Positions 31,954-35,974 of a stretch of DNA of 64,000 nucleotides are shown here, one piece after another. Source of the DNA: a bacterium (lineage in GTDB: Bacteria > Electryoneota > RPQS01); contig DASXUQ010000009.1 of assembly GCA_036504735.1 (NCBI GenBank), positions 291,204 through 355,203 on the forward strand, read 5' to 3'. The notes under the pieces were generated by a model. That model was given only the letters and a program-made list of their open reading frames with translations. It had not been told where the DNA came from and ran no database searches. Position numbers and translations under genes: made by a program. How positions within the stretch are numbered: position 1 is the stretch's first letter; the number at the start of each line of letters is the position of its first letter.

Positions 31954-32913
31954 ATGCCAGAATCAAGATTTAGTCTAGACCTCGGCAAGGGGACCTTCGA
32001 GGTCACCGGAAGCGAGGAGTTCATTGAGCGTCACCTGCCTGATCTGAAGGATCTGGCATCTAAGGTGATTGAAGTCATGAAACAAAACCCTCAGACATCT
32101 GGTGCTCCCGCTCCCGCGATGGGGATCAATGCCCGGCAGCAGTTGAGATATTCCGACGATCTATCGTCGGCTCCGAGCGAGCTTCTGGTAGATGAACTGA
32201 AAGCATTTCTCGATGCACTTGAGCTGCGCGAGAGCGAAATTGAATACACGACCGCAATCGTGTATTACTTGCGCGAAAAACTCGGCAGGGATACGGTAGA
32301 ATTTGACGACATCGAAGAATGCTATCGGCTCGTTGGACGTCCGGTCCCGCGCATAGACAAGTCAGTGCATAATGCAGCGTATCGTTACAAGTTTTTGAAT
32401 CGCGATAAGGACGGAAATGTTGCAATTACGCGGGTTGGACGCAATTTCATAGAACATCCGGAGACTGCCCGCGGAGCAAAACCGTCAAAAGGCACAAAGT
32501 CCGACGACAATGGAGATACACGAAAGAAATCATCGAGCTCTGCTCCATCACCCAAGGTGAAGGGTGATTTGGACCTTTTTGGAACGGCAGGACATATCCC
32601 GTTTAAGGGTTTTTGCGAGAGCAAATCCATCAACGAGAAGTCTAGTAACGCTGACAAGTTTGCCGTGTCCGCTTATTATCTGACCCAGCAAATCGGGCAA
32701 CCTACCTTCGACGAAAACGATATTTACACTTGTTTTGATCATATGCGTTGGGCACCACCATCCTATATTCGAAACAACTTGATCAACCACAAGAACCAGT
32801 TTGGTTATTACTCAATGGAAGAAGGGCGGTTTGCGGTGACTCTTAAGCTGAAGATCCGAGTAGAACGCGAGCTTGGCGAGAGAACGCCGGGGAACCTTGA
32901 TCTCTTGAAGTGA
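31954..32913 (+). CDS. unrecognised protein with two copies of a winged-helix-like domain
   Basis: A 319-residue hydrophilic cytoplasmic protein. Two regions align with each other: about residues 92-172 (EYTTAIVYYLREKLGRDTVE, then FDDIEECYRLVGRPVP, then VAITRVGRNFIEH) and about 229-312 (KFAVSAYYLTQQIGQPTFDE, then NDIYTCFDHMRWAPP, then RFAVTLKLKIRVE). The shared pattern A..YYL....G..T...DI..C......P, ending in a two-strand wing, suggests a winged-helix nucleic-acid-binding fold; this is inference. A Ser/Lys-rich linker separates them. The next gene, a DUF3800 protein, overlaps by 4 nt (GTGA), so the two are translationally coupled. Codon use is AT-richer than the surroundings. I know no assigned function. 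Confidence 0.7.
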   Translation: MPESRFSLDLGKGTFEVTGSEEFIERHLPDLKDLASKVIEVMKQNPQTSGAPAPAMGINARQQLRYSDDLSSAPSELLVDELKAFLDALELRESEIEYTTAIVYYLREKLGRDTVEFDDIEECYRLVGRPVPRIDKSVHNAAYRYKFLNRDKDGNVAITRVGRNFIEHPETARGAKPSKGTKSDDNGDTRKKSSSSAPSPKVKGDLDLFGTAGHIPFKGFCESKSINEKSSNADKFAVSAYYLTQQIGQPTFDENDIYTCFDHMRWAPPSYIRNNLINHKNQFGYYSMEEGRFAVTLKLKIRVERELGERTPGNLDLLK

Positions 32914-33779
32914 AAATGCAATCCTACATAGGATACAGTCGAACCGTTGAGAACGTTATATGCAAGGGTGCCACACTCGATGGTTGGCAAACACACGCTG
33001 TTAAGTACATGGCAGGTGAAAAGGCAAGTCACATGATTCTGTTTTATTGCGATGAGGCAGGTAACACCGGAGCGAACATTGACGACTCCAGTCAACCGTA
33101 TCACTATGTTCTCGCACTGGGAGTTGATGAGGCTAAGTGGACGAGCATTAAGACGGCTTACTACGCACTTATCAAGGCCGTGCTGCCGCGCATCGGAGTT
33201 GATAGTTCGAACTGTCCGTACCCAATCCTCCCCGCCGATTTTGAGCTACACGCATGCGAAATATGGCATCGCAAAGGTGTTCACTTCAGGAACCTGAGCA
33301 TGCACGATCGTGTTAATCTGATTCAGGGCGCGGCTGAGATTATAGATCGTCATAAATGCGAGATAGTATACGGGCGGTGTCCGAAGTCAAAGCTGGCAAA
33401 GTACTCTTCACCGGCCCATCCGCATTGGTGCGCCGCGTTGATCTGCTTGGAGCGGATCGCACGCGTCTGCACCAGAAACAACGCTCTTGCAGTTGTGGTT
33501 GCTGACCAAAACCTCGAGGTTCAGGATATGGTGAAGGACGTTGTGTCGCATTACCGGCACCATGGCCCTCCATTCGGTCCAGCTCAGAATCTGCAATGTA
33601 TCACGGACAACGTGCATTTTATGGATTCGCGTGGCAGCGAGCACATGCAACTCGCAGATGTCTGTACATGGCTGATTGCGCGTAACGAGAGACGGGCCAA
33701 CGGAATCGACCCAGCGTTGGCCCAAGCCCACAAACTCGTGAGGCAGAACGTCTCCGATTGGCGCAGCTTTCCGTACTAA
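32910..33779 (+). CDS. DUF3800 RNase H-like protein
   Basis: The core begins ILFYCDEAGNTGANID, the hallmark of DUF3800 (an acidic residue in the first strand of an RNase H-like fold). It continues to HMQLADVCTWLIARNERRAN, which carries the second conserved Asp (QLAD). The family is often found in mobile elements and defence islands and is thought to act as a nuclease; activity is not demonstrated. The frame starts with GTG at 32910, overlapping the stop of the previous gene. The first 33 to 41 residues are not typical of the family, so ATG at 33009 or 33033 may be the true start. A perfect 18-bp palindrome follows 2 nt after the stop. Confidence 0.8.
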   Translation: MKMQSYIGYSRTVENVICKGATLDGWQTHAVKYMAGEKASHMILFYCDEAGNTGANIDDSSQPYHYVLALGVDEAKWTSIKTAYYALIKAVLPRIGVDSSNCPYPILPADFELHACEIWHRKGVHFRNLSMHDRVNLIQGAAEIIDRHKCEIVYGRCPKSKLAKYSSPAHPHWCAALICLERIARVCTRNNALAVVVADQNLEVQDMVKDVVSHYRHHGPPFGPAQNLQCITDNVHFMDSRGSEHMQLADVCTWLIARNERRANGIDPALAQAHKLVRQNVSDWRSFPY

Positions 33780-33781
33780 AG

Positions 33782-33799
33782 ACTTGTATTAATACAAGT
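33782..33799. promoter_or_regulatory. perfect 18-bp palindrome, possible operator
   Basis: ACTTGTATT at 33782-33790 is the exact complement of AATACAAGT at 33791-33799. It has no loop and no T-tract, so it is more like a repressor site than a terminator. It is 28 nt upstream of the promoter at 33828. Confidence 0.5.
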
Positions 33800-33827
33800 T
33801 GTCGAATGTACATTTGTTCACTTTCCC

Positions 33828-33856
33828 TTGACAACTGGATATTCCTTTAGTATATT
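33828..33856 (+). promoter_or_regulatory. strong sigma70-type promoter of the putative small RNA
   Basis: TTGACA at 33828-33833 and TATATT at 33851-33856 with a 17-nt spacer, the same boxes and spacing as the promoter at 31742. Just downstream, CCCTGAC (33860-33866) and GTCAGGG (33872-33878) form a dyad across the predicted start, a possible operator or 5' hairpin. Confidence 0.7.
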
Positions 33857-33861
33857 ATGCC

Positions 33862-33966
33862 CTGACGACTGGTCAGGGCCGCCACTAGGCGACTCCGGGC
33901 CGCAAGGTCCCCGGCCGTCACCTTTTATGACCTTGCGGAGACACCTAGTTTTCGCGAGGTTTTTTT
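33862..33966 (+). ncRNA. putative structured small RNA of about 105 nt
   Basis: Between a consensus promoter and a T7 tract (33960-33966) there is no open frame but extensive pairing. CCGCAAGGTC (33900-33909) matches GACCTTGCGG (33929-33938). ACTAGG (33884-33889) matches CCTAGT (33944-33949), and CTCC (33893-33896) matches GGAG (33937-33940). The CCTAG strand can instead pair with the downstream CGAGG to make the terminal hairpin, so two folds compete as in an attenuator, yet no plus-strand gene follows. The next gene is on the minus strand and has its own terminator. I do not recognise an Rfam class. It may be a trans-acting RNA, or a remnant leader. Confidence 0.55.
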
Positions 33967-34006
33967 CGTCGTGACGTGGCAAGTGGCAGCACCTGCCACA
34001 ACAAAA

Positions 34007-34032
34007 CGCGCGGGGTAAGGACACCCCGCGCG
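34007..34032 (-). terminator. terminator of the cysteine synthase gene
   Basis: CGCGCGGGGT (34007-34016) pairs with ACCCCGCGCG (34023-34032), a perfect 10-bp stem with a 6-nt loop. Read on the minus strand the stem is followed by TTTTGTTG. It lies 26 nt past the stop at 34059. Confidence 0.8.
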
Positions 34033-34058: not shown

Positions 34059-34982
34059 CTATGGTCTTCTGTACACATCCGTGCTCACATACTTCAGCCC
34101 CGAGTCGGCCAACAGTGTGACGACCTTGGCCTTTGGGCCAAGCTGCGCGGCGACCTGAAGTGCAGCGATAACGTTCGCGCCGGAAGAGGTTCCGGCAAAC
34201 AGCGCTTCTTCGCGCGCTAAACGCCGCGCCATCTCTTTGGCGTCGTCGGTTTTGACGGGCAGGATCTCATCGATGAGTGACGGTTCCCAGAGGGGCGGAG
34301 TGTAGCCGATGCCTACGCCTTCGATCTTGTGGGGTCCGGCCTGACCGCCTGTCAGCACCGCCGATTCAGCAGGTTCCACAGCGATGATTTTGATATCCGG
34401 TTTGTGCCGCTTCAGGGCTGTAGCTACGCCACGCAAAGATGCCGCCGTGCCCACGCTGTGCACAAAGGCGTCAATCTCTCCCTGGGTCTGATTCCAGATC
34501 TCCTCGCCCAGCGGAAAGTAACCCGCAATGGCATCTTCATTGTAGAGCTGGTTGGTCCAGTAGGTGTCAGGCTCCATGCTGATCTCGCGCGCCGCTTCAA
34601 TCATATCCAGAATCAGTTTCTTGGTGGTCAGCCCGCCCTCGCTGCGGACCAGCGTCAACTCCGCCCCCAGCGCCGTCATCTGATCGAGCTTCTCGCGGCT
34701 GAAGGCATCGGACGAGACAATCTGCAGCGGATAGCCTTTGGCCGCGCAGACCAGCGCCAGCGATGCACCTGTGCTGCCGCCCGTGTATTCGACCACGCGG
34801 CCACCGGGCTTCAGGCGGCCATCTTCTTCCGCCCGCGAAATCACCGCCAGCGCCATCCGGTCTTTCATGCTGCCGGTGGGATTCTCCCATTCGAGCTTCA
34901 CAAAAATGTTCGCGCCGTGGGGTGGAACCACCTTGCGCAACCGAACCAGGGATGTATTGCCAATCGCATCGAGAATATGCAT
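34059..34982 (-). CDS. cysteine synthase-family PLP enzyme (CysK/CysM type)
   Basis: A 307-residue fold-type II PLP enzyme that makes cysteine from O-acetylserine or a similar activated serine. The PLP lysine lies in ENPTGSMKDRMA (about residue 40), the phosphate loop in GGSTGASLALVCAA and the asparagine/serine loop in GTSSGANVIAA; VEPAESAVLTGG and GVGIGYTPP are also family signatures. The start at 34982 (MHILDAIGNT) is supported by GGAGG 9 nt upstream; an ORF extension of 21 residues upstream is not conserved. It is divergent from the beta-propeller gene, with 68 nt between the starts, and ends at a strong hairpin. The fold cannot separate CysK from CysM or cystathionine beta-synthase-like forms. 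Confidence 0.9.
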   Translation of the reverse strand: MHILDAIGNTSLVRLRKVVPPHGANIFVKLEWENPTGSMKDRMALAVISRAEEDGRLKPGGRVVEYTGGSTGASLALVCAAKGYPLQIVSSDAFSREKLDQMTALGAELTLVRSEGGLTTKKLILDMIEAAREISMEPDTYWTNQLYNEDAIAGYFPLGEEIWNQTQGEIDAFVHSVGTAASLRGVATALKRHKPDIKIIAVEPAESAVLTGGQAGPHKIEGVGIGYTPPLWEPSLIDEILPVKTDDAKEMARRLAREEALFAGTSSGANVIAALQVAAQLGPKAKVVTLLADSGLKYVSTDVYRRP

Positions 34983-35050
34983 GGAGTGAGCCCTCCGTGT
35001 TATCTGCCTTTCCACCAAGTTAGTATCGCGGTCCCTCAAAGTCAAGACTT

Positions 35051-35974
35051 ATGAGATTTGATTTCAAAACCTTGTTCACGCTCAGCGTGTTGCTCTGTTT
35101 GCCGCTGTCGCTGCTTGCCCAGCCGGACAGCACGGCCGGCAAGCGTCACGCGCAGGAGCCCGAGCGGATCCTGTGGATGGAGAATGTGCAGAATGCCTAT
35201 CCGCGCTGGTCAAAGGATGGCTCGAAGATTCTCTTCCAGTCTAACCGCAGCGGCAAATGGCAGATCTATGTCATGAACCGCGACGGCTGGCACGAGGGCC
35301 AGATTACCCGCGACAGTTCCAACAACAATTTGCCGGACTGGTCGCCGGATAATTCCATGCTGGCCTTTGTCTCGGACCGTGGCGGAAATGAAGATGTCTA
35401 TGTGATGAGCATGGATGGCCGGGGGCTGAAGAATCTCTCCAATCATCCCGGACGGGACATTCATCCCTACTGGGCGCCGGACGGCAAAAGCCTGCTGTTC
35501 AATTCCAACCGGGACCGGGCAGACGGCTTCGAAATCTACCGCGTGAATGTGGACGGCAGCAAACTGAAGCGGCTGACCAACAGCCCCGATGTCAAAACCT
35601 GTGCGCGGTTCTCACCTGACGGAAAGAAGATTGTCTATCTCAGCGGCGGAACCAATGATGATGTGGTGGTGATGAATGCCAACGGTACCAACCCCGTCAA
35701 CCTGACCAAGAGTGCCGCGGCGGAAGGCTGGCCGGCCTGGTCGCCGGATGGAAAAAGAATTATCTATTCCTGCGATGAGCCCGGCACCTTCAGCCTCTAT
35801 TTTATCCATCCCGACGGCTCCGCGCGCCGGCAAATCACCTTTCCCCAGCCGCCGTACCGCGATGCCCGCGCCATGATTTCTCCCGACGGTTCCATGCTGG
35901 TGTTCAACCGCCAGACGGAAACCACCATCGGCATCTACACTCTGAACCTTCCCGCCTCAAACGCGACAAAGTAA
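35051..35974 (+). CDS. TolB-like WD40/PD40 beta-propeller secreted protein
   Basis: A 307-residue exported protein (signal KTLFTLSVLLCLPLSLLAQ) with six PD40 repeats of the type WSPDGKxIxFxSxRxGxxxIYxMN: RWSKDGSKILFQSNRSG, WSPDNSMLAFVSDRGGNED, WAPDGKSLLFNSNRD, FSPDGKKIVYLSG, WSPDGKRIIYSCDE and ISPDGSMLVFNRQTE. These build a TolB-like propeller, usually a protein-binding platform in the periplasm. There is no TolB N-terminal domain. It is transcribed away from the cysteine synthase gene and followed after 27 nt by a regulatory-like protein gene. Its binding partner is unknown. Confidence 0.88.
   Translation: MRFDFKTLFTLSVLLCLPLSLLAQPDSTAGKRHAQEPERILWMENVQNAYPRWSKDGSKILFQSNRSGKWQIYVMNRDGWHEGQITRDSSNNNLPDWSPDNSMLAFVSDRGGNEDVYVMSMDGRGLKNLSNHPGRDIHPYWAPDGKSLLFNSNRDRADGFEIYRVNVDGSKLKRLTNSPDVKTCARFSPDGKKIVYLSGGTNDDVVVMNANGTNPVNLTKSAAAEGWPAWSPDGKRIIYSCDEPGTFSLYFIHPDGSARRQITFPQPPYRDARAMISPDGSMLVFNRQTETTIGIYTLNLPASNATK

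Follow-up and report, generated by a model that had tools for sequence, protein, structure and literature searches.

Downstream of a DUF3800 gene in this bacterial contig stands a consensus promoter, followed by a paired stretch and a run of T, and the question that the locus raises is whether these elements make up a small RNA gene and, if so, whether its product belongs with the DUF3800 protein, acts as a riboswitch or does neither. By the window we mean the whole stretch of 64,000 nucleotides that was analysed. A sequence-only reading of it had proposed a stand-alone RNA with two competing pairings, as in a riboswitch or attenuator, and had treated the DUF3800 locus merely as a place for an alignment; the known link between DUF3800 genes and partner RNAs was thereby overlooked. 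Weinberg et al. reportedly described DUF3800 RNAs in 2017, eleven such motifs. Rfam contains DUF3800 RNA families (PMC11701678), the DUF3800 protein is given a predicted RNase H fold and an earlier link to putative ncRNAs (PMC10910872), and some type V and VI CRISPR loci encode DUF3800-family nucleases (PMC12669027; cf. PMC10910872). Our literature search for DUF3800 found, in the portions of text available, no tested function of the RNAs linked to it.

A Probable Small RNA Gene behind the DUF3800 Gene

The promoter boxes and the T7 tract were confirmed where the sequence-only reading had placed them (33828-33856 and 33960-33966), with a paired stretch in between, and the unit (Table 1) is, as judged from its sequence, likely to be a stand-alone small RNA gene with its own promoter and terminator. 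The promoter scores 11-of-12 with a 17-nt spacer, and the terminator lies 74-110 nt further on. A genome-wide pattern count gave 57 sites for TTGACA-N17-TATWWT and 0 for the reversed pattern, and TTGACA-17-TATATT is the usual consensus promoter of this genome; the identity of the promoter with that of the nearby upstream cassette, true as a matter of sequence, therefore means little. Among 30 of the 57 consensus promoters, examined for a fold with z below -3 and a terminator before any frame of at least 80 aa, the window's was the sole case of a strongly folded RNA so terminated. The predicted start is separated by 84 nt from the DUF3800 stop at 33779. The RNA had been said to be without a frame; a mechanical 68-aa frame (33818-34024, minus strand) does span it, and nothing suggests that this frame is coding. 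A tRNA scan of the window gave nothing.

Table 1. Features of the DUF3800 locus, in window coordinates
Feature	Position	Strand	Basis or remark
319-aa gene, same operon, upstream of and overlapping the DUF3800 start, no known family	31954..32913	+	family searches
DUF3800 gene, 289 aa, predicted RNase H-fold nuclease, proposed protein partner	32910..33779	+	PF12686, 40 bits vs cut-off 21
Consensus promoter of the small RNA, TTGACA-17-TATATT	33828..33856	+	boxes TTGACA 33828-33833 and TATATT 33851-33856, 17-nt spacer
Palindrome GCCCTGAC-GACTG-GTCAGGGC	33859..33879	.	spans expected start site, from position relative to -10 box
Small RNA, ~103 nt, predicted start 33863-33865, end in T7 tract	33864..33966	+	start inferred from -10 box
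Predicted body, three-way junction: P1 33864-33867/33916-33919 and 33869-33872/33911-33914, P2 33876-33895, P3 33897-33910 with GCAA loop	33864..33919	+	MFE
Alternative closed fold, ACTAGG/CCTAGT (33884-33889/33944-33949), the P1 of the sequence-only reading; terminator excluded	33884..33949	+	z -2.1 alone
Intrinsic terminator: 14-bp hairpin 33929-33961, T7 33960-33966	33929..33966	+	hairpin and T tract alone, z -6.0
Convergent cysteine-synthase-like gene	34059..35045	-	PF00291; cysKM below cut-off

From its predicted start, the RNA folds with an MFE of -47.0 kcal/mol and a z of -3.79 (-5.2 when counted from 33858); of 1,066 sampled 103-nt windows from both strands of the 64 kb, 10 reach a z of -3.79. 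The body without the terminator reaches a z of only -1.2 to -1.45 against shuffles, and the fold signal comes from the terminator. Pair probabilities in the body are ~0.95-0.99 for P1 and P3 and ~0.5 for the outer P2 pairs, and for this GC-rich stretch a three-way junction in which P1 begins at the first nucleotides makes a plausible model, one that stands without statistical support. What had been taken for a first RNA hairpin (33859-33879) does exist as a palindrome, but it straddles the start site and so lies at most partly within the RNA; a DNA operator may be the better reading. A perfect 18-bp palindrome, ACTTGTATTAATACAAGT, is also present at 33782-33799, between the DUF3800 stop and the RNA promoter; since no T run follows, it is not an obvious terminator, and it is possibly an operator. 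That interval contains no terminator, and the operon and the RNA therefore have the one at 33929-33966 in common.

The DUF3800 protein of the window retains the conserved residues D48, E49, K159, R182, Q247 and D250. It has a long branch and an uncertain placement in the protein tree, no close relatives were found in the genome and viral collections, and its single-sequence structure prediction (mean pLDDT 33) is unusable. For the 319-aa protein, the genome collection held no close relative, its homologs being those of G007 (49%; L043 509-1468, minus strand) and G009 (30%); as G007 has this relative and yet no PF12686 match, the 319-aa protein is not bound to DUF3800. The same genome encodes a cysteine synthase 79% identical to the window's. 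That gene (L009 1-1540) is placed between another gene and an apparent repeat of that gene's 3' end, with other cargo beyond, and the locus looks like a variable site.

Competing Folds

Both of the pairings that had been proposed to compete exist; a working switch is another matter. Over 10 nt, the arm at 33900-33909 is perfectly complementary to the terminator's 5' arm (33929-33938), and its pairing lies within the alternative fold. Ten Watson–Crick pairs for the shared arm arose in 6 of 20,000 shuffles, and with G-U pairs allowed in 382 of 20,000. The two mutually exclusive folds are not of comparable stability: for the full RNA, the alternative comes to -33.8 kcal/mol or, with P1, to -31.7 kcal/mol, against -47.0 for the terminator fold, a penalty of ~13 kcal/mol that grows to ~15 when P1 is added. 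In growing transcripts, the alternative arm is paired when the RNA ends between ~33940 and 33952, and the terminator then displaces the pairing. As had been stated, no gene follows on the strand of the RNA that it could regulate, the next gene being the convergent one on the minus strand and the next plus-strand gene starting at 35051, and Rfam offered no match to an aptamer or leader family. We conclude that the RNA is probably not a riboswitch because the alternative is ~13 kcal/mol weaker and no gene follows on the strand; the lack of an aptamer match together with that of a gene behind the RNA likewise makes a switch unlikely.

Searches for Relatives

The RNA stayed unclassified in the covariance search that had been proposed for it: an Rfam scan up to E 10 gave three chance-level matches only and no DUF3800 family. 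BLAST against the order, the phylum, plasmids and phages returned nothing beyond the RNA's own sequence and short matches at chance level; viral contigs, scanned by pattern, held no match either. Single-sequence covariance models found no relatives of either fold in the 39 genomes of the phylum, the one for the terminator fold (R1) giving nine other matches at chance level (E 0.05-0.96) and the one for the closed fold (R3) none. Neither BLAST nor the models found the RNA in G007, a genome 56% complete. Pairing of the RNA with the mRNA of its own operon was equalled or bettered by 33 of 40 shuffled mRNAs.

Convergent RNAs at Other DUF3800 Genes

The survey covered the same 39 genomes, in 24 of which PF12686 was present. 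It comprised 38 DUF3800 genes with a usable 3' flank, the window's among them, after the removal of L101 (flank too short) and L092 (a duplicate of L121), which are both outside the tree as well; the 185 control genes exclude copies of the window and the loci that had been selected by promoter (L051-L080). In an automatic scan, a convergent promoter of at least 11/12 lay within 200 nt of the stop in 12/38 DUF3800 genes versus 6/185 controls. Of the six control positives, L092 repeats a DUF3800 gene already counted (it overlaps L121), another corresponds to the window's RNA as viewed from the gene facing it, and L091 and L095 are genes directly behind a DUF3800 gene, so that two unrelated controls remain. 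At a threshold of at least 10/12, the automatic counts were 20/38 and 13/185, with two of the 20 positives, L090 (at +86) and the weak convergent site of the window itself, not accepted as RNAs. A convergent RNA in the window, with TTGTCA-18-TACATT as promoter and a start at ~33798, was dropped, its fold having a z of +0.3.

Hand-calling, which was not blind and accepted weak promoters in some cases (L086, L089, L093), placed a convergent unit of promoter and RNA no more than 600 nt from the stop in 26 of the 37 other DUF3800 genes: 22 near the stop, L115 at +395, and three (L090, L091 and L095) at 513-551 nt, with an additional gene in between. At the remaining 11 of the 37, no RNA unit could be called by hand. 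The called RNAs start just past their promoter and span ~60-110 nt; in most of them, the end is formed by a terminator or closing stem that lies at the stop codon of DUF3800 or close to it. Two of them, L105 and L108, match Rfam, both as DUF3800-VII. At least five convergent classes have no Rfam match, in a scan that covered all named members but L134 and L136: L082/L088/L089/L109, L097/L102/L106, L085/L121, L093/L103 and L110/L114/L115/L117/L134/L136. At L091 and L095, a 164-aa gene of no Pfam family directly follows DUF3800, and behind it sit two tandem consensus promoters, both convergent and each followed by a structured stretch (RNA starts 1356 and 1520, and 2709 and 2893, respectively, with the DUF3800 gene oriented forward); these loci possibly carry two partner RNAs. 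Among plasmid-borne DUF3800 loci from other phyla, 5/10 have a convergent unit, one of which is the Rfam family DUF3800-VII. A common pattern of convergent RNA (TGGA, hairpin, CGGCGTC, terminator, TTCGCTTT) recurs at the 3' end of the DUF3800 genes on plasmids of Alpha- and Betaproteobacteria (L123, L124, L126, L127), with no Rfam match at E 0.1.

RNA Classes and Protein Clades

Among the classified rows, each RNA class belongs to one protein clade. The classes had been named by eye, prior to the building of the tree, and on the protein tree the six with at least two members require five changes, which is as few as there can be; as exceptions, one clade includes an unclassified RNA (L104) and another includes two genes without an RNA (L118, L120). 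The match is accounted for by shared descent of gene and RNA, and it demonstrates that the two travel together, not that they are in contact. Covariation is seen in one non-Rfam class of four sequences, where 7 pairs changed on both sides and 97.8% of cells are paired, versus 39-49% when slid. The covariance model of this class (L110/L114/L115/L117) matched six places in the 39 genomes, one of them also more weakly on the other strand, and all six are 3' of and convergent to DUF3800-family genes. Four of the matches had built the model and two are new, one of the latter adjoining a protein that falls below the Pfam cut-off and is 47% identical to a member. The outcome suggests that an RNA-only search can locate DUF3800 genes. 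The window's RNA did not match this model.

Discussion

With moderate confidence, and on the evidence of sequence, we favour the reading that the window's RNA is the partner RNA of its DUF3800 protein, representing a new class that is uniquely codirectional with its gene. A small RNA with a housekeeping promoter and an intrinsic terminator of its own would then be the RNA half of a DUF3800-RNA pair; it would bind its own DUF3800 protein, as the linkage suggests, and the bound RNA might either hold the nuclease inactive or equip it, as in a defence or toxin–antitoxin module. Transcription itself, the binding of the RNA by the protein and the role in defence or as an antitoxin are all steps that we infer. 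The locus, the promoter and the size of the RNA fit the DUF3800-linked kind. Further points in favour are the convergent units and DUF3800-VII matches at other DUF3800 genes, the agreement of RNA class with protein clade, the covarying class whose model matched only beside DUF3800-family genes, the singular standing of the unit among the 30 promoters examined, and the catalytic-type residues kept by the window's protein. Against the partner reading stand its direction, as this is the sole codirectional unit and all 26 others were called convergent, the lack of a relative and of any match to the Rfam DUF3800 families or the class model, and the 11 of 37 other genes without a callable RNA. The body fold is also weaker (z -1.2 to -1.45) than in the seven three-way-junction relatives tested (-3.1 to -5.8); four other accepted relatives (L081, L082, L097 and L104, z -0.5 to -1.7) are about equally weak. 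Being codirectional with the DUF3800 gene, the RNA cannot be a cis-antisense to its mRNA and, if a true member, would act in trans; with cis-antisense excluded by direction and trans pairing with the operon mRNA unsupported, direct binding to the protein would be favoured.

The same observations can be arranged differently. A lineage-specific, trans-acting sRNA unconnected to the DUF3800 protein, transcribed from a separate promoter at the 3' end of an mRNA whose terminator it also uses, would agree with the missing terminator ahead of the RNA promoter, by which operon and RNA both use 33929-33966, and with an orientation unlike that of every DUF3800-linked RNA found in the survey. We regard this as unlikely, given the rarity of a unit of such strength (1/30 consensus promoters) and its position next to a member of a family that in this phylum usually comes with a partner RNA. 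The unit might also be nothing but the terminator of the 319-aa/DUF3800 operon, combined with a promoter that makes a functionless short transcript: the fold signal is in the terminator and not in the body, and the RNA is without a homolog. An 11-of-12 match to the genome consensus, with its 17-nt spacer and 74-110 nt ahead of the terminator, speaks against this reading, as does the arm common to two pairings, improbable by chance when Watson–Crick pairs are counted and less so with G-U, and we consider the explanation quite improbable.

An attenuator or antisense-acting riboswitch, finally, would exploit read-through past 33966: a plus-strand transcript would enter the convergent cysteine-synthase-like gene and be antisense to it. 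Its terminator and alternative pairing do use a common arm, the alternative does form in growing transcripts, and precedents are known (PMC9943018). The terminated state is nevertheless preferred by ~13 kcal/mol, there is no known aptamer, and neither BLAST nor a model found the RNA in the genome that encodes the 79%-identical cysteine synthase (G007, 56% complete); we give this explanation very little credence.

The survey suggests that the link between DUF3800 and an RNA is the rule in the phylum, that most of the RNAs are outside Rfam and that the class of RNA tracks the clade of protein. From this, one may tentatively, and with more doubt than belief, picture the DUF3800 gene and a small class-specific RNA as a two-part module across the phylum and beyond, an RNA-controlled nuclease of RNase H fold whose partner RNA has split into many classes that look unrelated, the window holding an exceptional codirectional copy. 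If this is true, the codirectional copy would rule out cis-antisense as the general mechanism and point to direct RNA-protein binding; it is a natural test of whether the RNA binds the protein or pairs with the message. DUF3800 proteins also occur next to certain type V and VI CRISPR effectors (PMC10910872, PMC12669027), which makes the question directly testable.

Comparison with Known Systems

The closest counterparts are DUF3800-VII RNA (RF02967, "Gene; sRNA") and the other Rfam DUF3800 families, which, like the window's RNA, have their own promoter at the DUF3800 3' end and a similar size; DUF3800-VII further resembles the predicted fold in that P1 encloses two hairpins. The window's RNA differs from them in lacking a sequence or covariance-model match, in lying on the strand of the gene rather than convergent to it, in ending with a distinct terminator hairpin where they have P1 and then T, and in a weakly supported body fold. 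The unlisted convergent RNAs of the L110/L114/L115/L117 class are alike in locus, promoter consensus, size and the terminator or closing stem, and unlike in their opposite orientation and in belonging to a model that the window's RNA does not match. The antisense-acting riboswitches, exemplified by the SAM riboswitch of the Clostridium acetobutylicum ubiG operon and the cobalamin riboswitch of Listeria pocR (PMC9943018), share with the window's unit a promoter and a terminator-type attenuator aimed into the 3' end of a convergent gene. The window's RNA departs from these in matching no aptamer, in its lopsided energies and in not being kept with the gene in the nearest relative. Type III toxin–antitoxin systems pair an RNA antitoxin with a nuclease toxin, the tandem-repeat RNA being encoded just upstream of the toxin gene on one transcript. 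Here the RNA is downstream, has its own promoter and shows no tandem repeats, but the two systems would be alike if the RNA restrains the DUF3800 nuclease.
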